Shown one piece after another: positions 6,615 through 25,913 of a DNA stretch of 30,064 nt (positions are counted from its first letter, which is position 1; each line of letters begins with the position of its first letter). Origin of the DNA: a virus. The DNA lies in IMG/VR virus record IMGVR_UViG_3300010160_000166, positions 1-30,064 of that record; one strand, given 5' to 3'. Made by a program: the position numbers and the translations under genes. Under the pieces are notes generated by a model. The model was not told where the DNA came from, ran no database searches, and worked only from the letters and a program-made list of their open reading frames with translations.

Positions 6615-9350
6615 ATGATAAAAAATATAGTAGCAATATATCCAGGCAGGTTTCAACCTTTTGGTAAACATCACGCTGCAGCCTTCAAATGGCTACAAAC
6701 TCAATTCGGAGCAGCAAATTGTTACATAGCAACTTCAAATGTTGTAGACCTACCAAAGTCGCCATTTTCTTTTGAAGAAAAGAAAGATATAATAAGACAC
6801 TATGGTTTCAATGATCATATTGTACAGACGAAGCAACCGTATAAAGCGGAGGAGATTCTTTCCAAGTACAAACCAGAAGAAACAGCTGTGCTATTTTTAG
6901 TAGGGCAAAAAGATATGCAGGAAGATCCTAGGTTTGCAATGAAACCTAAAAAAGACGGAAACCCGTCATATTTTCAACCTTACGATAAAAATAAAACTAA
7001 TTTACAAGGATTTGATAAACATGGTTATTTAGTAGTAGCTCCTCACGTTTCAATTGCAATTCCAGGATTTGGAGAAATGTCAGGAACTACCTTAAGAAAA
7101 GTTCTAGGGGAGAAAAAACCTAGAACTCAAAAACAAAAAATATTCAAAGACATTTTTGGTTGGTATGATGAAAAAACAGCTAACATGATTTTTGATAAAT
7201 TAGAGGCTATTTCAGAATCTAAAATAAACCCTATAGCAGAAATGTTTAAAAAAAAGAACCAGGCTATAAAACAATCTATTTCTGAAACTCAAACTAAATT
7301 ATTTAGTAAAGAATGGTGGAGTGAATCTTTAGAATTAACAGAAGCTATATCAGTAGACGAACTTAAATCTAAATTTAATAAATTCATTACTGCACTTAAA
7401 CAAGAAGGTAAAGAAACTAAAGTAGCTTTTACTTTACTAGCTCAAGCAGCTCAAGGTAAAAAGAATTTATCTGACGCTGAAAAAAAACAAATAGGAGATC
7501 AAATGAAAGATGTCCTTAAAACAATTGGCTTAACTGCAATTGCAGTGCTACCGGGAGGTTCAATAGCAGCTATATTAATTAAACTTTTAAAAGCAGAACG
7601 TTACATATTACCTTCATCGTTTATAACTGAAGCTTCATTGAAACCAAATGTTTGGAAAGACTTCGATTTAGCTTCTTTAACTTCGGAAGATATGGATGTG
7701 TTATGGAGTATGTATGAAGATACATATTCAAAAGCTGGATTAGACTTTTCAGCTAATAATGCCTCTGAATTACAATCCAAATACAAAGCAGTTTATTTAG
7801 AAGATGTAGATAGCGATTCTATCGCAGATGCTTTTATCATTTACAAACCTACTTCATTTGGAAATAAAATTGCATTGTTAGGAACCAATGATAAAAAAGA
7901 AGCTAAAAAATCTATGTTAACTCAGCTATTTAAACTTTTAAAAACCCAAGGATGGTTTATAGAAGCTTCTATGAAAATGGAAGACATTCTAGCAGCTAAA
8001 TCTGACATTCCTGTAGTAACTGACGAAAAAGTTATTCAAGGTTTAGCAGGAGATAAAGGTTTGGAAATGATGGATGACGGTTATTATAAACGTAAATTAT
8101 CTAAAGTTAATAAAATAATTGTTAAACGTTTATATGGTAAGCCAAGCATTAATTCTTTGAAAGAAGGCGCTATGTCAGCAGCTCAGCAGAAAAAGCACAA
8201 TGAAAAAATTGAAAGACTAAAAAGATTTTTAGATAATAATGTGGGTAGACCATTTGTATATGATTTCAATGACTTTCCTAAAACAGTAGCTGGTATCAAA
8301 TTATATGAAGCTCTTTTAAAAGAAGGTGGAGCAGGAGGTCATATGGCACATCCATTTAATATTAATTGGGTTAATTCTGGAAAGGATTTAATTAAGGCAT
8401 TTCAAATGTCAATTGATTATTTGAAAAAAGGACCTGCTGCAGTAAAAATTGATGGAGTAAATGCTTCTATTCGTTTTGTTGAGTTAGACGGTAAAAAACA
8501 ATTTGTAATGGATAGAGGTTCAATGAAACCTTTAGATGTTAAAGGAATTACCAAAGCAGAATTAACTGACAGATTTGGAGAAGGTCATGGAATGATTAAA
8601 GTAGGAGGTACTGTTTTAGATATCTTTAATGCGTCAATTCCTAAAATTCAAAATGAACTTAAAAAATTAAAATTGTGGGACAATCCAAATATAATGTTCA
8701 ATATTGAATATGTATCAGGGTCGACTAATGTATTAGCATACGATAAAAATTTCCTAGCTATTCACGGTTTATTAGAATTAGAGCAAATCACTCCTAAACG
8801 AAGAGGCACTAATGAAATTGAATATGACGAAGCTGCATTGCAAGAGTTATTGAATAAATTAGCTCCTGCTGCAGCTAAAAATGGATATGAGGTAGTAGGA
8901 TCTATTCCAACTAAATTAGACGGAACTCCTGATTTAAATTCAGAATTAAATAAAAAATATACAGTTAATTACAATGCAACTAAAAAAGAAACTAAAACTT
9001 TAAATGATTGGTTGAAAGATGCAAAAGTACCTAGCACAGAATTTAAAACAAAAGAAGGAAAGACTATATCTGCATTGTCAAAAGATGTGTTAATTAAAAT
9101 TTCAGAAGGTATAAATTTAGAAGATTATGTAGCAGATCCTAAAGATTATCAAACTGTAATAGACGGGTTTGCAATTTACATGGCTACTATGAAGTTAGGA
9201 GATGCCGTATTAGCTAAACTATCTTCCCCTTTAGGCCCTGTTTCAGATCATGAAGGAATTGTAATTAGAGATGAAAGAATTAGCAATGCACCTTTTAAAA
9301 TTACTGGAAAATTTATTTTGGGAGGATTAGCGAGCTCTTTTAAAAAATAA
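6615..9350 (+). CDS. Multidomain enzyme: HIGH-type nucleotidyltransferase plus ligase-type nucleotidyltransferase
   Basis: This 911-residue protein has several domains. Residues 1 to about 185 are a cytidylyltransferase/NMNAT-like fold: YPGRFQPFGKHH at 9-20 and MSGTTLR at 155-161 match the nucleotide-binding motifs, but the usual HxGH reads GKHH. Residues about 245-330 are helical and end in an apolar LPGG segment, vaguely like LETM1-related domains. Residues about 345-510 are an unassigned alpha/beta region. Residues about 572-911 carry the covalent nucleotidyltransferase motifs of ATP/NAD-dependent ligases: KIDG at 611-614 (predicted adenylated Lys611), FNIEYV near 695, EGIVIRD at 880-886 and FKITGK at 894-899. 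Several L/I-x-E before A/G sites (after 243, 339, 517, 570) lie between domains and resemble prohead-protease sites. Substrate is unknown; RNA ligation and NAD metabolism are both possible. Confidence 0.75.
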   Translation: MIKNIVAIYPGRFQPFGKHHAAAFKWLQTQFGAANCYIATSNVVDLPKSPFSFEEKKDIIRHYGFNDHIVQTKQPYKAEEILSKYKPEETAVLFLVGQKDMQEDPRFAMKPKKDGNPSYFQPYDKNKTNLQGFDKHGYLVVAPHVSIAIPGFGEMSGTTLRKVLGEKKPRTQKQKIFKDIFGWYDEKTANMIFDKLEAISESKINPIAEMFKKKNQAIKQSISETQTKLFSKEWWSESLELTEAISVDELKSKFNKFITALKQEGKETKVAFTLLAQAAQGKKNLSDAEKKQIGDQMKDVLKTIGLTAIAVLPGGSIAAILIKLLKAERYILPSSFITEASLKPNVWKDFDLASLTSEDMDVLWSMYEDTYSKAGLDFSANNASELQSKYKAVYLEDVDSDSIADAFIIYKPTSFGNKIALLGTNDKKEAKKSMLTQLFKLLKTQGWFIEASMKMEDILAAKSDIPVVTDEKVIQGLAGDKGLEMMDDGYYKRKLSKVNKIIVKRLYGKPSINSLKEGAMSAAQQKKHNEKIERLKRFLDNNVGRPFVYDFNDFPKTVAGIKLYEALLKEGGAGGHMAHPFNINWVNSGKDLIKAFQMSIDYLKKGPAAVKIDGVNASIRFVELDGKKQFVMDRGSMKPLDVKGITKAELTDRFGEGHGMIKVGGTVLDIFNASIPKIQNELKKLKLWDNPNIMFNIEYVSGSTNVLAYDKNFLAIHGLLELEQITPKRRGTNEIEYDEAALQELLNKLAPAAAKNGYEVVGSIPTKLDGTPDLNSELNKKYTVNYNATKKETKTLNDWLKDAKVPSTEFKTKEGKTISALSKDVLIKISEGINLEDYVADPKDYQTVIDGFAIYMATMKLGDAVLAKLSSPLGPVSDHEGIVIRDERISNAPFKITGKFILGGLASSFKK

Positions 9351-10589: not shown

Positions 10590-11498
10590 ATGATAAAATT
10601 AAAAAATCTTTTAGTCTTAAAAGAAGAAGAAGATAAAGCTCCTGTATCAGTTCAAGATACAATAGAAGCTTTTTTTACTAAAAACAAATCTAAATTAGAA
10701 AAATTATCTGATGATGATGATTGGGATGCGTTTTATGAATTAGGATTTGAAGCATTTCCAGACATGGAAGAAGGAGATGTAGCTCAAGCTATGAACCGAG
10801 CAATGCTAAATTCTGGTTGGGTAGAAAATGAAGATGTAGCTGAAATGCCAACAGAAAAAGATTTAGAGTTAGCTGCATTCGGAGATAAAAAACTTCAAAA
10901 AGGTGTTAATACTTCTGAATATGATAAGTTAGCAAAATTGCCTAAAAATCCAGAAAATATAAAAGAGTCTTTTAAAAAAAAAAGTAGAGTATCTGAAATA
11001 ACTACTACCGAGGCTACAAAAGTAGAATCATTTTTAAGAGCTATTAAATCTTCAGTTAAAAGTGCAAGAGTTGTTCAGCAAGTAACTGACTTTATTAATA
11101 TTGCTAGATTAGACCCATATGCTTCTTATAAAAGTCTTTTAAAAGATTTATTATTATTTTACAAAGGTAACAATGAAGTATATAATATAGTTCAATCAGG
11201 ACTTCAAGAATCTAAAAAAAAAGAAGCACTTTGTGAAATTGATCAAATAGAAGAAGGTGAATACAAAGGCAGAAAGGTAGAATTAAATAAACCATTTTAT
11301 ACACCAGGAGGTCCTAGAAAACGAGCAGTTTATGTTACAAATGACAAAGGTAATGTTGTTAAAGTAGGCTTCGGAGAACCTGGAATGAAAATTAAGAAAA
11401 ATAATCCTGCTCGAAGAAAATCTTTTAGAGCAAGACATAATTGTGAAAACCCTGGACCGCGCTGGAAAGCTAGATATTGGTCCTGCAGAGCATGGTAA
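10590..11498 (+). CDS. Conserved phage protein with KARYWSC C-terminal module
   Basis: This 302-residue protein opens MIKLKNLLVLKEEE, a leader like those of the downstream Cys-rich protein and the gp22 scaffold. Residues 20-100 are acidic. Residues about 145-205 are helical. The C-terminal 78 residues (about 225-302) form a compact basic module beginning KGRKVELNKPFYTPGGPRKR and ending with an RARHNCENPGPRWKARYW-type stretch containing two cysteines. I recognise this module as recurring in T4-like phage proteins of unknown function. An IEE before G site at 220-223 lies immediately ahead of it, so gp21-type cleavage could release it. Function is unknown; a virion-internal protein is the best guess. 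Confidence 0.65.
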   Translation: MIKLKNLLVLKEEEDKAPVSVQDTIEAFFTKNKSKLEKLSDDDDWDAFYELGFEAFPDMEEGDVAQAMNRAMLNSGWVENEDVAEMPTEKDLELAAFGDKKLQKGVNTSEYDKLAKLPKNPENIKESFKKKSRVSEITTTEATKVESFLRAIKSSVKSARVVQQVTDFINIARLDPYASYKSLLKDLLLFYKGNNEVYNIVQSGLQESKKKEALCEIDQIEEGEYKGRKVELNKPFYTPGGPRKRAVYVTNDKGNVVKVGFGEPGMKIKKNNPARRKSFRARHNCENPGPRWKARYWSCRAW

Positions 11499-11502
11499 AA
11501 AT

Positions 11503-12543
11503 ATGAAACCAAATTTAATTACAGAAGCAGCTAGATTGCAAAAATTAGCTGGATTGAGATTGACAGAAGCTAAAAGTCGTGAAGAATTAGCAGCAGAACT
11601 TGCCGCTGCATTTAAAAAAGGTCCAGCAGCAACTAGAGCATTTTTAGACTCTGAAGACGGTATGTCTGACATAGTGCGAACAGATTTGTTACTTAATCCA
11701 CAAACGGATGGAAGTATGTCTGACGACACAGTTAACGTTGGTTCAGCTCAAGGACCTGCAATGGAGTTTAAACCTACACAAAGTGAAATAGATTTAATGA
11801 AATCTGTTTCTTGGCCATTAGGTTCAGCTAAAAATCTTATAGATGCTATTAATTCAGGGCCAGTTGCTCAAGGAATTGTAACTTCTGGAAATTTAATTAT
11901 TGACGGTCATCATAGATGGTCCGGCGCTATATCTATAGGAGGTGATAAATCTGGAATTTCCGGCACAGATGTGAATTGGCCAGGTCAAAATACTCAAGAA
12001 AAATTAGCAGCTGCGCAAATAGCCATTGCAGCTACTCTAGGGCCAGGCAAATCTATTCCATCTCAAAGTAAGCCATTTAAAACAAATATAATGGGCGCAA
12101 ATGCTGAAGCGATTTCAAAAATGATTATGAATAATATTAATAAACAAACAGATGCCAACGCACCAGGAGCTTTATTAAATGATAAAATGATTAAAGATTT
12201 AGTTGCTGGAGAAATAAGTGGAGCTGATACAGTGTATGATTGGTTAGGCGGAAAACCGTTTGAAGATAATAGTTCTAATAAAGGATATAAATTACGTCTA
12301 GCAATTGCTAAAAAAATAGGAGAAAATCTAGCTGCATTACCAAAAAATCCTGATGCGCCGGAACGTAAAGATATGCCGCAATTCGATCCTAGTGTCGGCG
12401 GTCCTAAAATTAATTCAGTAACTGGAATGTTAAAAGGAAAATCTAAAGGTGACTATAACGTAGCTGCTCCGTTTACAGCTAAAGAATCTGTCAATAAAAG
12501 ATTAGACTCTATGCTTAAAGAATCTTTTATAAAAATAAAATAA
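11503..12543 (+). CDS. ParB-like domain protein with capsid-type leader
   Basis: This 346-residue protein is read from the ATG at 11503, four bases after the upstream stop. The frame is open further up to an ATG at 11443, but that start would overlap the upstream coding region by 56 bases and is less likely. From 11503 it begins MKPNLITEAARLQKLAGLRL. That leader has ITE before A (residues 6-9) and LTE before A (20-23), both gp21-type sites, plus the peptide QKLAGL also found at the end of the gp22 scaffold. Residues about 95-150 hold GNLIIDGHHRWSGA, whose DGHHRW (134-139) is the hallmark of ParB/Srx-like domains. Such domains bind nucleotides or cut DNA in other systems; the activity here is not known. 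Confidence 0.7.
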   Translation: MKPNLITEAARLQKLAGLRLTEAKSREELAAELAAAFKKGPAATRAFLDSEDGMSDIVRTDLLLNPQTDGSMSDDTVNVGSAQGPAMEFKPTQSEIDLMKSVSWPLGSAKNLIDAINSGPVAQGIVTSGNLIIDGHHRWSGAISIGGDKSGISGTDVNWPGQNTQEKLAAAQIAIAATLGPGKSIPSQSKPFKTNIMGANAEAISKMIMNNINKQTDANAPGALLNDKMIKDLVAGEISGADTVYDWLGGKPFEDNSSNKGYKLRLAIAKKIGENLAALPKNPDAPERKDMPQFDPSVGGPKINSVTGMLKGKSKGDYNVAAPFTAKESVNKRLDSMLKESFIKIK

Positions 12544-12544
12544 A

Positions 12545-13057
12545 ATGATCAAATTAAAAGACTTATTAAAAGAAGCTGAAGGGGGAACTCCAAAGTGTCC
12601 AGTAGCTACTCAAAATATAGAAGTAAATTTAGAGCACAGACAAATAGCTATTGAAAAATATGGATATGGTCCTTTGAATCCTAATAATCCAAATGTAAAA
12701 TTTTGGAAAGCAAAACAAGCTTTATGGAAATCAGAAACTATTGAAGAAGCTAAATCTGCAAGATGTAATTCATGCGCTGCATTTAATATTACTACTAAAA
12801 TTTTAAGTTGTATTGAAAAACCATTAGCATCTGATGTAGTACCTGAAGAAATTCCTGTTGAAGAAGGTGAAGATATGCAAACTCAAGCTCCAGCTATTGA
12901 ACCAGAATTTGACGATACTGAAGGAGCAGACAAAGACGCATGGGATACAATAGAAGCTGGTAAATTAGGATATTGTACAATGCACAAATTTAAGTGTGCA
13001 GGTTCTAGAACATGTAATGCTTGGATAACAGGCGGTCCTATTAAAGATAAAAAATAA
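12545..13057 (+). CDS. Cysteine-rich protein with capsid-type leader
   Basis: This 170-residue protein opens MIKLKDLLKEAEGG, with LKE before A (8-11) matching the gp21 cleavage pattern. It has seven cysteines: C18, C74, C77, C89, C144, C151 and C157. The groups CNSC, GYC and FKCAGSRTCNAW suggest metal or iron-sulphur binding. Similar C-x2-C ... GYC ... C-x5-C-x-AW proteins occur in other T4-like phages without assigned function. Residues about 98-138 are an acidic linker. It starts one base after the previous stop and is co-transcribed with the ParB-like gene. A redox or structural zinc role cannot be distinguished from sequence. Confidence 0.65.
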   Translation: MIKLKDLLKEAEGGTPKCPVATQNIEVNLEHRQIAIEKYGYGPLNPNNPNVKFWKAKQALWKSETIEEAKSARCNSCAAFNITTKILSCIEKPLASDVVPEEIPVEEGEDMQTQAPAIEPEFDDTEGADKDAWDTIEAGKLGYCTMHKFKCAGSRTCNAWITGGPIKDKK

Positions 13058-19228: not shown

Positions 19229-19840
19229 ATGGAAAATAAAAAATTATTAGTAGATTATATTACCTTTGACATTTCGCCAGAGAAGATTAATGAGTCTATG
19301 GAAAAGAACGGAGGTCGCTTAATGGTTAAGGGTGTTTTGCAAAGAGCAGATGCCACAAACCAAAACGGACGTAAATATCCGAAAAATATATTAATGAGAG
19401 AAGCGCAAAAGTACTCTGATATTAATATTAAAGAAAGAAGAGCGTTAGGTGAGTTAGATCATCCAGATTCATCTATAGTTAACTTAAACAATGTATCTCA
19501 TAACATTACAGAAATGCATTGGGATGGAAATGATTTATGTGGTACTGTAGAAGTGCTTTCAACACCTTCAGGAAACATTTTAAAAGAACTTTTCAAATGT
19601 GGAATTAAATTAGGTATCTCTTCTAGAGGTTTAGGGTCTGTTAAGCAATTAGGAGAATCTGAAGTTGAAGTTCAAAATGACTTTGAGTTAATTGCATTTG
19701 ATTTTGTGTCAAATCCTTCAACTCACGGAGCATTTTTAAAACCAATGCACGAATCAATCCAACCAGGTCAAACGTTTTCATCTAATAAATATAATACAGT
19801 AAATAGATTGATAACTGATATCTTAACTGATACAAAATAA
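19229..19840 (+). CDS. 21: Prohead core protease (T4 gp21-like)
   Basis: This 203-residue serine protease degrades the scaffold and trims the capsid and internal proteins during head maturation. The catalytic residues can be placed: His78 in RRALGELDHPDSS and Ser131/132 in LGISSRGLGSV, matching the H...S arrangement of the gp21 family. The N-terminal MVKGVLQRADATNQNGRKYP strand-loop is also typical. Length is like T4 gp21 (about 212). It follows the head-internal candidate by four bases and overlaps the next gene by one base (TAATG). Its expected specificity (L/I-x-E before A/G/S) links it to the leaders seen across this window. Confidence 0.92.
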   Translation: MENKKLLVDYITFDISPEKINESMEKNGGRLMVKGVLQRADATNQNGRKYPKNILMREAQKYSDINIKERRALGELDHPDSSIVNLNNVSHNITEMHWDGNDLCGTVEVLSTPSGNILKELFKCGIKLGISSRGLGSVKQLGESEVEVQNDFELIAFDFVSNPSTHGAFLKPMHESIQPGQTFSSNKYNTVNRLITDILTDTK

Positions 19841-22011: not shown

Positions 22012-22878
22012 ATGAAAGATTTATTGAAAGAAGCGATTGCTGATGCAAAAGCTGTAAAACAAACTGCCCTTGCTAATGCTAAATTAGCTTTAGAAGAAGC
22101 GTTTACTCCAAGACTTCAATCTATGTTATCTGCGAAATTAGCTGAAGAACTTTCTGAAGAGGAAGAAGAAGTTGAAGATGTAGCAACAGAAGGTGAAGAA
22201 GAAGGATACGTTGATAACGAAGCTCCTGTAGAGGAAGGCGAAGAAGGTGAAGACTATTCTGAAGAAGCTCCGGCTGAAGAAGAAGAAGTTACCGAAGAAG
22301 AAGATGATTTAGATTTAGAAGAAATCATCAGAGAATTAGAAGGAGAAAGCGATTCTGAAGACACAATGGAAGAAGGCGATTATTCTGAAGAAGACTCAAT
22401 GGAAGAAGGAGAAGAAGAAGAAATGACTGAAGAAGAAGATGAAGATATCGACATCAATGAAATCATTCGTTCTTTAAGAGAAGAAGATGAAGAAGAAGAA
22501 ATGACTGAAGAAGAAGAGTCTAGCGAAGAGTTAGAAGAAGCTTATAACGTTATTCGTTTCTTAAAAGGTAAAATCAATGAAGTTAATTTATTGAATGCTA
22601 AACTTCTTTACTCAAACAAATTGTTCCGTAATTTTGCATTGAATGAAGGTCAAAAAATGAAAGTAATTGAAAATTTTGACAGAGCTCATAATTTACGTGA
22701 AGTAAAATTAGTTTTCTCAACATTAGCTGAAGGATTCAAATCTCCATCAACTAAAAAGTCAATTAAAGAATCATACGCATCGAAGCCAGTTGCTTCAACT
22801 AAACCAGCAAAGCGTATTTTATCTGAAGGAGCTGACTTAGCTAGCAGATTCCAAAAATTAGCAGGTTTAAAAAAATAA
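22012..22878 (+). CDS. 22: Prohead core scaffold protein (T4 gp22-like)
   Basis: This 288-residue major scaffold is predicted to be digested by gp21 during maturation. The N-terminus MKDLLKEAIADAKAV has LKE before A (5-8), and ALEE before A follows. Residues about 48-175 are an extreme Glu/Asp run, as expected of the scaffold acidic core. The C-terminal domain (INEVNLLNAKLLYSNKLF, later KMKVIENFDRAHNLREVKL) is the recognisable gp22 signature. The last 17 residues follow LSE before G (270-273) and contain SRFQKLAGL, a peptide shared with the ParB-like protein. It lies directly before gp23, as in T4. Confidence 0.9.
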   Translation: MKDLLKEAIADAKAVKQTALANAKLALEEAFTPRLQSMLSAKLAEELSEEEEEVEDVATEGEEEGYVDNEAPVEEGEEGEDYSEEAPAEEEEVTEEEDDLDLEEIIRELEGESDSEDTMEEGDYSEEDSMEEGEEEEMTEEEDEDIDINEIIRSLREEDEEEEMTEEEESSEELEEAYNVIRFLKGKINEVNLLNAKLLYSNKLFRNFALNEGQKMKVIENFDRAHNLREVKLVFSTLAEGFKSPSTKKSIKESYASKPVASTKPAKRILSEGADLASRFQKLAGLKK

Positions 22879-22904: not shown

Positions 22905-24596
22905 ATGTCATTAAAATCAATCTTAAACGATAGTAACTCAACAGTTCGTCGTCAAATGGATGAGACCAAAGGCCTAGTAGGTAAATGGTCCAAGACTGGT
23001 TTATTAGAAGGTATTGATAGCGAGTACGAAAGACACGGTATGGCTATTATGCTTGAAAACCAAGCTAAACAATTAGTAACTGAAGCTAACTCAACAGGTA
23101 CAGCTTCTAACTCAGAACAATGGTCAGGTGTTGCTTTACCATTAGTAAGAAGAGTATTTGCTGAAATTGCTGCTAAAGATTTCGTTTCTGTTCAACCAAT
23201 GAACTTACCGTCAGGTCTAGTGTTCTATATGGATTTCAAATACGGAACTGCTCAGCCAGGATTCACTAACACAGCTACTCCTGCAGGTAATCCATCAGCT
23301 CCATCATTTCAAACAAACTCTGTATTTGGTGTAACTTCTGGATTGGATCAAGATCCAACAGGTGGTCTTTATGGACAAGGTAAATTTGGATACTCAATCA
23401 ATGATGTAACAACTACATTAGCTGCTTCAGGTTCTGCTTTATCAACTACTTTATCTGGATCTATTTCAGCAGCATTAACAATGGCTTCAGATGCAGATTT
23501 TGACGAATTTAATTATGATTCAAAATTTACATTAGCTAACTCAGCATCAATTGCTGCAGGTCACTTCAAAAAAATCTCTGTGCCAGCTGCATTATTGTCT
23601 GAGGCAGATTTAGAAGGTGTAAGAGCTTATTTGATTTCAGGTTCAACAGCTGCTAAAATTACAGCTTACTATCCACAATTTACTAAAAATGTTAATGACA
23701 CTACATTGACATTTATTGTATCAGGTTCTATTACAAATACAGGATTAAATGAAACTATTGCAATTGGATATCAAAAACAACCAGCTTCTAATTCAAGAGG
23801 TGATTTCCAAGATACTTCAGGAGATTCTTTAACTAATATCAATATTCCAGAAATCAACGTAGAGTTGAAATCAGAATCTATTGTTGCTAAAACAAGAAAA
23901 TTAAAAGCAATTTGGTCTCCAGAGTTTGCTCAAGATTTAAATGCATACCACTCAATTGACGCTGAAGCTGAATTAACTTCTATGTTATCTGAATATATCT
24001 CTCAAGAGATTGATTTAGAAATTTTAGATATGTTGATTCAAAATGCAGTAACGAATGAAAGATGGTCTGCTCAAATTGGATTTGATTATATCTCAAGCAC
24101 TGATACTTTCTCTCAAGCAGGTTTCACAGGAACAGCTTATACTCAAGGAACTTGGTTCCAAACTTTAGGAACTAAAATCCAAAAAGTATCTAATAAAATT
24201 CACCAAAAGACTATGCGTGGTGGAGCAAACTTCTTAGTATGTTCTCCAGACGTAGCTACTATTTTAGAATCTATTCCAGGATATGCTGCTGATACCGACG
24301 GTACTAAAATGCAGTTTGCAATGGGTGTTCAAAAAGTAGGTTTATTGAATTCAAGATTTACAGTTTACAAAAATCCTTATATGACTGACAACGTTATCTT
24401 GTTAGGATATAGAGGAGCTCAATTCTTGGAAACAGGTGCTGTATATGCTCCATATATTCCACTTATCATGACTCCATTAGTATACGATCCAACAAACTTT
24501 ACTCCACGTAAAGGTGTTATGACTCGTTATGCTAAGAAAATGGTAAGACCAGAATTCTATGGTACTATTAAAGTACATGGATTGCATTTAATATAA
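22905..24596 (+). CDS. 23: Major capsid protein (T4 gp23-like)
   Basis: This 563-residue HK97-fold capsid subunit precursor has QLVTEANSTG at 56-65, with cleavage expected after Glu60; it aligns with the FLTE/AEIG site of T4 gp23 after residue 65. LVRRVFAEIAAKDFVSVQPM and GLVFYMDFKYG follow, canonical gp23 signatures, with KLKAIWSPEFAQDLNAYHSI and the C-terminal VYAPYIPLIMTPLVYDPTNF and TRYAKKMVRPEFYG. Its gene shows somewhat different codon choice (more C-ending codons), consistent with high expression. It follows gp22 after an A-rich 26-base gap and is followed by a strong terminator. Confidence 0.96.
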   Translation: MSLKSILNDSNSTVRRQMDETKGLVGKWSKTGLLEGIDSEYERHGMAIMLENQAKQLVTEANSTGTASNSEQWSGVALPLVRRVFAEIAAKDFVSVQPMNLPSGLVFYMDFKYGTAQPGFTNTATPAGNPSAPSFQTNSVFGVTSGLDQDPTGGLYGQGKFGYSINDVTTTLAASGSALSTTLSGSISAALTMASDADFDEFNYDSKFTLANSASIAAGHFKKISVPAALLSEADLEGVRAYLISGSTAAKITAYYPQFTKNVNDTTLTFIVSGSITNTGLNETIAIGYQKQPASNSRGDFQDTSGDSLTNINIPEINVELKSESIVAKTRKLKAIWSPEFAQDLNAYHSIDAEAELTSMLSEYISQEIDLEILDMLIQNAVTNERWSAQIGFDYISSTDTFSQAGFTGTAYTQGTWFQTLGTKIQKVSNKIHQKTMRGGANFLVCSPDVATILESIPGYAADTDGTKMQFAMGVQKVGLLNSRFTVYKNPYMTDNVILLGYRGAQFLETGAVYAPYIPLIMTPLVYDPTNFTPRKGVMTRYAKKMVRPEFYGTIKVHGLHLI

Positions 24597-25349: not shown

Positions 25350-25913
25350 ATGAAATTAAAAGATATATTAGATACAGTATTAGAAGATATTGAAAAAGGA
25401 TGGATGAAACAATTCACTCCTGGTCAAGTATATTCTAATCCATATCACACTGCATTTAATCAATTAAATGAAGGAGTAACAAAAACAGTTGTAATTATGG
25501 TAGGCATACCAGGTTCAGGTAAATCTACATTTATTAAAAAATTACCAGGAGCTCCTGTGATTTGTTCAGCAGATCATTATTTCGAGCAAGGAGGTGAATA
25601 TAAATTTGACGCTACTAAATTAGGAACTGCACATACTCAATGTAGAAATAAAGCAGCTTTAGCAATGCATCAAAATGCACCTGCTATTGTAATTGACAAT
25701 ACAAATTTAACAGATAAAGAAAGAGAACCATATGAAACTTTAGCTCAACAGAATGGATATAAAATTTTATATGTAGTTTTTGAACCAAATAAACAAGATG
25801 TAAAAAAATTAGCTAGACGAAACCTTCATGGTGTTGACGCGGCAAAATTAGAAGTTATGGCAAAAAGATTTCGACCACCTAGTGGCGAATTAGGTAAAAT
25901 CATTTATAAATAA
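25350..25913 (+). CDS. P-loop kinase (polynucleotide/zeta-toxin-like fold) with N-terminal leader
   Basis: This 187-residue protein has a P-loop GIPGSGKST at 52-60 in a strand-loop-helix, then CSADHYFEQGGEYKFD, IVIDNTNLTDKE and LARRNLHGVDAAKLE. This matches AAA_33-type kinases such as the kinase domain of polynucleotide kinases and N4BP2-like proteins. Residues 1-41 are an extra leader, MKLKDILDTVLEDIEKG and onward, ending in QLNE before G42; that is a gp21-type site placed just before the first strand of the kinase domain. Substrate is unknown (nucleic acid 5' end, or a small molecule or protein). It begins three bases after the PhoH stop. Confidence 0.75.
   Translation: MKLKDILDTVLEDIEKGWMKQFTPGQVYSNPYHTAFNQLNEGVTKTVVIMVGIPGSGKSTFIKKLPGAPVICSADHYFEQGGEYKFDATKLGTAHTQCRNKAALAMHQNAPAIVIDNTNLTDKEREPYETLAQQNGYKILYVVFEPNKQDVKKLARRNLHGVDAAKLEVMAKRFRPPSGELGKIIYK

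Follow-up and report, generated by a model that had tools for sequence, protein, structure and literature searches.

A hallmark of eukaryotic RNA viruses is the polyprotein that is cut into individual enzymes; in tailed phages the head protease has, to our knowledge, a recognized role in trimming and clearing and none in parting enzyme chains. Whether it could also do the latter is a question raised by a 911-aa ORF (6615..9350; ORF call and translation) in the window, the whole 30,064-nt stretch of DNA analysed here. This 30-kb fragment of an uncultured virus carries genes for a T4-type terminase, portal, gp21 protease (Peptidase_S77), gp23 and PhoH, and the ORF shares its late structural region with the genes for terminase, portal, protease, scaffold and capsid. 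All window coordinates given below are on the + strand. A preliminary description had proposed that the chain is packaged in one piece, cut in the prohead and injected. In our assessment it is very probably a head-packaged, modular cargo polyprotein processed by the prohead protease. NMNAT-like, LETM1-related, GNAT, G(Y/A)MS and RNA ligase-like units, joined by flexible [LI]xE linkers, would be built as one chain into the prohead core; as the head matures, the gp21-type protease would cut after Glu243, 339, 517, 565 and 570; and the units so released would remain with the DNA, enter the host along with it and act ahead of new phage protein synthesis. We infer cleavage, packaging and injection of this chain, as well as the roles of its enzymes, from the comparisons that follow.

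The sites first listed were LTE243/A, ITE339/A, LKE517/G and LKE570/G (a slash marks the predicted cut), with FIE450/A as a weaker one, and all are exact in the ORF; LYE565/A and ISE831/G, absent from that list, are further strict sites. There are six strict [LI]xE[AG] matches in the chain (243, 339, 517, 565, 570, 831), against a mean of 1.41 in 10,000 shuffles of its 911 residues (P=0.0024). The accompanying caution that some matches are expected by chance, and that placement is the real argument, was well founded: motif counts alone were judged weak, and homologues, stand-alone copies and structure prediction were therefore used to test where the sites fall. Module borders, as defined by homologues in other contexts, fall 0-7 residues from a predicted site, and when six sites were placed at random 20,000 times, no placement came as near, a figure that is indicative only, the borders being analyst-chosen. 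ISE831 was rejected as a cut site; it lies inside the ligase module, in a confident fold, and is not conserved. FIE450 ends a strand inside the acetyltransferase fold, and all stand-alone copies share its Glu, so it too was dropped, leaving 243, 339, 517 and 570 from the original list.

The chain opens with an NMNAT/cytidylyltransferase-like unit and its linker (residues 1-243, core about 1-200; 6615..7343), identified by profiles and Foldseek. It matches PF01467 (E 3.9e-5), phrog_395 and the profile of the NMN adenylyltransferase 2qjt, its Foldseek matches are NaMN/PPAT adenylyltransferases, and the catalytic motifs GRFQPFGKHH and SGTTLR were recognized by eye. The linker element KLFSKEWWSESLELTE (residues 228-243; 7296..7343), of a [FL][ST][KQ]xWW type, adjoins predicted cut site LTE243/A (7341..7343), which is placed by homologue breaks and a low-pLDDT linker. 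Next comes a LETM1-related helical module (residues 244-339; 7344..7631), whose match to NF040639 (E 6.4e-11) covers only the C-terminal part of the family and is below the full-protein cut-off; it ends at predicted site ITE339/A (7629..7631; low-pLDDT linker, stand-alone comparison). Residues 340-517 (7632..8165) form a GNAT-type module, assigned from AlphaFold2, Foldseek and stand-alone copies. Folded alone, they give a model (pLDDT 88, pTM 0.84) that matches GNATs in Foldseek, and a PDB profile search with this module returned nothing useful; on the model, this is a GNAT acetyltransferase fold with a predicted activity. The third site, LKE517/G (8163..8165), is in a C-terminal tail missing from stand-alone GNATs. 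Beyond it is a small G(Y/A)MS...FPKT module (residues 518-570; 8166..8324), a separately shuffled unit that the preliminary description had missed. This module contains a double site, LYE565/A (8307..8309) and LKE570/G (8322..8324), the second directly before the GGAGGHM with which the next module begins.

That last module, a covalent-nucleotidyltransferase (RNA ligase-like) one (residues 571-911; 8325..9347), is assigned mainly from conserved sequence motifs: KIDG (with Lys611), EGIVIR and KITGKF are invariant or almost so in the alignment. The window module itself has no Pfam or PDB profile match, a homologue (L178) has a weak match to RNA_ligase, and a full-chain Foldseek search against PDB matched the nucleotidyltransferase alone. 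In searches of annotated phages, the ligase was found in Mel-JY01 and large uncultured phages, with none besides. Mel-JY01 is an isolated Microcystis phage whose nucleotidyltransferase-ligase chain reads GGLGGHM after IIAE.

The border in front of the ligase is the most constant one. Immediately upstream of GGAxGHM, 97 of 102 distinct homologues have [LIV]xE (77 L, 17 I, 3 V), and the five exceptions have an HNH-like insert ending in LLxC instead of LLxE. With stricter de-duplication and later loci included, the motif is found in 88 of 93, and four insert carriers and L200 (LISD) lack it. The P2 position is occupied by ten different residues, and P4 is mostly L or I. The homologues are related, so these counts are not independent; by cluster, it holds for 47 of 48 at 90% identity and for all 13 at 60%. 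Among 40 representatives, [LI]xE[AGS] does not occur in the nucleotidyltransferase core (0 in 6,615 residues) and was counted 43 times over 10,952 residues of the middle region (pre-ligase site left out) and 17 times over 14,376 residues of the ligase. L or I stands at P3 of 5% of Glu residues in the nucleotidyltransferase, 22% in the middle and 12% in the ligase, and the middle-region enrichment is specific to P3, with no rise at neighboring positions. Such a pattern is what a gp21 specificity for L/I-x-E would leave. The insert, in-frame and about 230-265 aa long, is found at the pre-ligase site of L021, L043, L109 and L154, with a CxIC-type zinc finger at its start and LLMC or LLLC at its end, the site Glu being replaced by Cys; L154 retains a partial GGAADH copy upstream. 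It had no Rfam match as a group I intron, and intein splice-site residues were not recognized.

The rest of the chain is far more fluid. A homologue scan of viral contigs returned 45 loci, with chains from 564 to more than 1,300 aa in which both end enzymes are kept and the middle differs. Uncultured viral relatives differ by gain, loss, exchange or rearrangement of middle units at the predicted sites, and BLAST alignments break (in window numbering) at 239-244, 337-342, about 517 and 553-570. Among the arrangements seen, chains such as L024 and L036 have no middle unit; L002 and L006 have only the GNAT; L012 and L029 have a CW..GMKKKGKKQVPNC unit, to which the GYMS unit may or may not be added; and L137 and L201 have the LETM1-related unit followed by a DUF6934-like one in place of the GNAT. 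In L190 the order is reversed, with an N-terminal ligase, MKTFKQYYNTILNE/GGAAGHM, followed by the nucleotidyltransferase. L027 has a DUF5661 unit and then a Tad3-family (Type I Thoeris inhibitor) module (L027:6862-7260) between two predicted cut sites, LTE289/S before it and ITE422/G before the ligase. A cut after LTE289 would leave SLVDHAQNELELAGL, matching the start MSLSNHARRELELAGL of a free Tad3-family protein; in other phages, free members of the Tad3 family lack a targeting peptide, and packaging of Tad3 is therefore not universal. Border sites are conserved overall while linkers and cargo vary, as the proposed alignment check anticipated, and some homologue borders have a non-canonical P3 (T or D), as in VPTNE/GYMS and NLDEDDDPCW. 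The middle of L170 contains a plastocyanin-like domain (about residues 677-756) flanked by IKE/A and VDE/G, and HELEH-type (zincin-like) modules were seen within the long chains L168, L165 and L170.

Stand-alone copies of the same units suggest how the joins arose. Ligase, acetyltransferase and LETM1-related units encoded alone have a short N-terminus resembling T4 capsid-targeting peptides, with xxE at the same border as in the chains. One stand-alone ligase (L187) begins VNFSEYIELINE/GGAAGHM, and stand-alone GNATs (L060-L094) begin with MIRLTEILNE, MKHIKLYEDFINE or MFKKFRQFINE. The latter end in YGKPK or similar, and fused GNATs extend with xxSLKE or xSNLNE. Likewise, a stand-alone LETM1-related protein of 127 aa (L199) has the targeting-like start MKHLKTFENFNINE/T... 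and stops at PSSFQ, where the window reads PSSFITE/A. Since the fused units carry xxE tails missing from stand-alone copies, fusion appears to have inserted a cut site at each join.

The window chain begins MIKNIVAIYPGRF and lacks an N-terminal targeting peptide; in T4, no other kind has been shown to work. Homologous chains L047, L133, L135, L136 and L146 do have an N-terminal peptide of this type. The [FL][ST][KQ]xWW element was found in 41 distinct contexts in homologues, internal every time. Among 76 chain ORFs, it adjoins cut sites in 50 and is present in none of the five that have an N-terminal targeting peptide, an exclusion that is weak because the four L133-L146 chains are close relatives. 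The remaining 21 have neither and often contain an xLKE/xxxLxxLFKKLLxE/ stretch. Either this stretch or the WW-type linker might be guessed at as a candidate internal targeting signal, the linker being a candidate spacer as well.

Structure prediction places the retained sites in linkers. In an AlphaFold2 model of the full chain, pLDDT is below 50 at residues 205-225, 242-247, 330-342, 465-467, 477-519 and 543-575, taking in sites 243, 339, 517, 565 and 570 and neither 450 nor 831; low pLDDT is read here as a predicted linker, not as proof of disorder. All four sites of the preliminary description for which an exposed position had been proposed as a check are thus in predicted linkers. The low values at 477-512 are partly an alignment effect, the GNAT module folded alone being confident to about residue 507. 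The full-length pTM of 0.46 fits expectation, since the units would be loosely joined.

The proposed processing machinery is present in the window. A gp21-type prohead protease is encoded at 19229..19840 (Peptidase_S77, E 1.4e-30; phrog_207, E 6.5e-54) and a gp23-type major capsid protein at 22905..24596 (Gp23, E 3.8e-82), in which LVTE/ANSTG was found by eye at the place where T4 gp23 is cut after LTE. Between them, at 22012..22878, is an acidic scaffold-like protein with the start MKDLLKE/A and seven [LI]xE[AGS] sites. The L/I-x-E rule of gp21 and the function of targeting peptides are known from T4 (PMC9026906). For the nucleotidyltransferase, there is also virion evidence from relatives. 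The cyanophage core cytidylyltransferase T4-GC190 was found in purified S-SM1 virions and not detected in those of S-PM2 (PMC3037559). It starts MKKFSAFLNE/A in S-SM1, MKSFFQFLSE/A in S-SM2 and MKKFSAFLSE/A in Syn9, and the S-PM2 protein has no targeting-peptide start. NMNAT-like proteins have also been reported from S-SCSM1, S-CBWM1 and S-CREM2 virions; the authors allow for carry-over or co-purification (PMC9602691, PMC10665884). Just upstream of the cytidylyltransferase in S-SM1 is a KWDG ligase-like ORF, with a similar ORF in S-PM2 (L213-L217 are S-PM2, Syn9, S-SM2 and S-SM1); the enzyme pair would therefore be older than the window chain.

The polyprotein reading has to be weighed against an uncut multidomain enzyme of the polyvalent-protein kind, in which linker LxE motifs would be common helical or acidic linker sequence. 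The linkers are indeed somewhat Glu-rich (7.1 vs 5.5 per 100 residues), and the parts of Iyer et al. (2017) drawn on here describe polyvalent proteins of 2-15 domains as widespread in phages without requiring processing, and the N4 virion RNAP as packaged uncut (PMC5512222). General acidity does not account well for a ligase border in which P3 and P1 are fixed and P2 is free, for enrichment at P3 specifically, for targeting peptides at the same border in stand-alone copies, or for C-terminal xxE tails on fused copies and none on stand-alone ones, and we regard an uncut enzyme as improbable. More improbable still is an unpackaged fusion of metabolic and RNA-repair enzymes residing in the cytoplasm, contamination being the source of the virion signal in relatives. 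It would fit the missing N-terminal targeting peptide and the carry-over considered in PMC9602691 and PMC10665884, but would leave the targeting-like N-termini of stand-alone copies, the position of the gene in the late structural region and virion detection in several independent cyanophages to be explained separately.

A further possibility is a sub-case of the polyprotein reading, in which only some sites are cut, freeing for instance the ligase while the rest stays joined, and the other motifs are relics of fused stand-alone genes. Only the pre-ligase site is near-invariant; other borders vary, a few without a canonical motif. On the other hand, relatives retain sites 243, 339 and 517 with changes in the residues that surround the Glu (LNE243/A and MTE339/A in L001, LKE243/A in L002, and similarly at 517), and partial cutting seems rather unlikely. 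The polyprotein reading as a whole draws on linker placement, conserved border sites and varying cargo, and is supported by the targeting peptides of stand-alone copies, the gp21-type protease in the window and the cyanophage homologues reported in virions.

Parts of this scheme have precedents. T4 gp21 processing (IPI-III, Alt, gp22, gp67, gp68) has the L/I-x-E sites, the gp21-type protease, short N-terminal targeting peptides and injected cargo (PMC9026906), but T4 internal proteins are trimmed of a terminal peptide (Alt of one at each end) and core proteins are fragmented and for the most part discarded, whereas cuts in the window chain would part several folded enzymes. Polyvalent proteins of phages and conjugative elements are likewise modular, combining conflict enzymes in reshuffled multidomain chains that are believed to accompany the DNA into the host, and their authors already compare them with viral polyproteins; in the sections of that paper used here, release is attributed to embedded peptidase domains, and neither prohead-protease linkers nor targeting peptides are described (PMC5512222). 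A profile search of the window chain found no peptidase domain at family cut-offs. Cyanophage T4-GC190 shares the related N-terminal enzyme (phrog_395), presence in virions and the MKKFSAFLxE/A start (Syn9 and S-SM1), but is a separate gene, not part of a multi-module chain. SPN3US gp245 and phiKZ gp175 are head-packaged, ejected proteins cut after x-x-Glu, some of such propeptides several times; their motifs are AxE/SxE, however, and the known SPN3US cuts take off N-terminal propeptides (and the protease's own C-terminal one) rather than opening linkers between enzymes. No description of enzyme chains separated by a prohead protease was found in a literature search of open papers.

A broader proposal, to which we would give slightly less than an even chance, is that, throughout a group of aquatic T4-like phages, the prohead protease serves to process polyproteins. 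Interchangeable effectors (NAD enzyme, RNA ligase, acetyltransferase, Thoeris inhibitor, plastocyanin, ParB-like protein and others) would sit between [LI]xE linkers. A single targeting element, either at the N-terminus or in the form of an internal WW-type linker, would bring the entire chain into the head, and the effectors cut from it would be injected. The chain design suggests a way to load several proteins per head at a fixed ratio. If the polyprotein reading is right, the stretches that [LI]xE borders enclose in such chains, and the genes that encode targeting peptides, can be recognized as early effectors that are injected, as yet unknown anti-defence proteins among them.

Several other genes in the window are candidates of this kind. 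A polynucleotide-kinase-like P-loop protein (25350..25913; AAA_33, E 2.7e-17, residues 47-177) has a targeting-like start, with LNE41/G just upstream of the kinase domain. It could form an RNA-repair pair with the ligase of the chain, which, if so, would be delivered at the moment of infection. A second candidate cargo polyprotein (10590..11498) starts with MIKLKNLLVLKE and has IKE126/S, LQE207/S and IEE222/G; its C-terminal unit (phrog_7595) sits behind different N-terminal parts in relatives. It is followed by a ParB-like protein (11503..12543) with an N-terminal LITE/A...LTE/A, a related domain being fused into a nucleotidyltransferase-ligase chain in L052, and by a protein with the targeting-like start MIKLKDLLKE/A, retained in relatives (12545..13057). 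The scaffold-like protein (22012-22878) ends in RFQKLAGL, and RLQKLAGL is found in the propeptide-like N-terminus of the ParB-like protein (11503-11570), possibly as a core-interaction motif.
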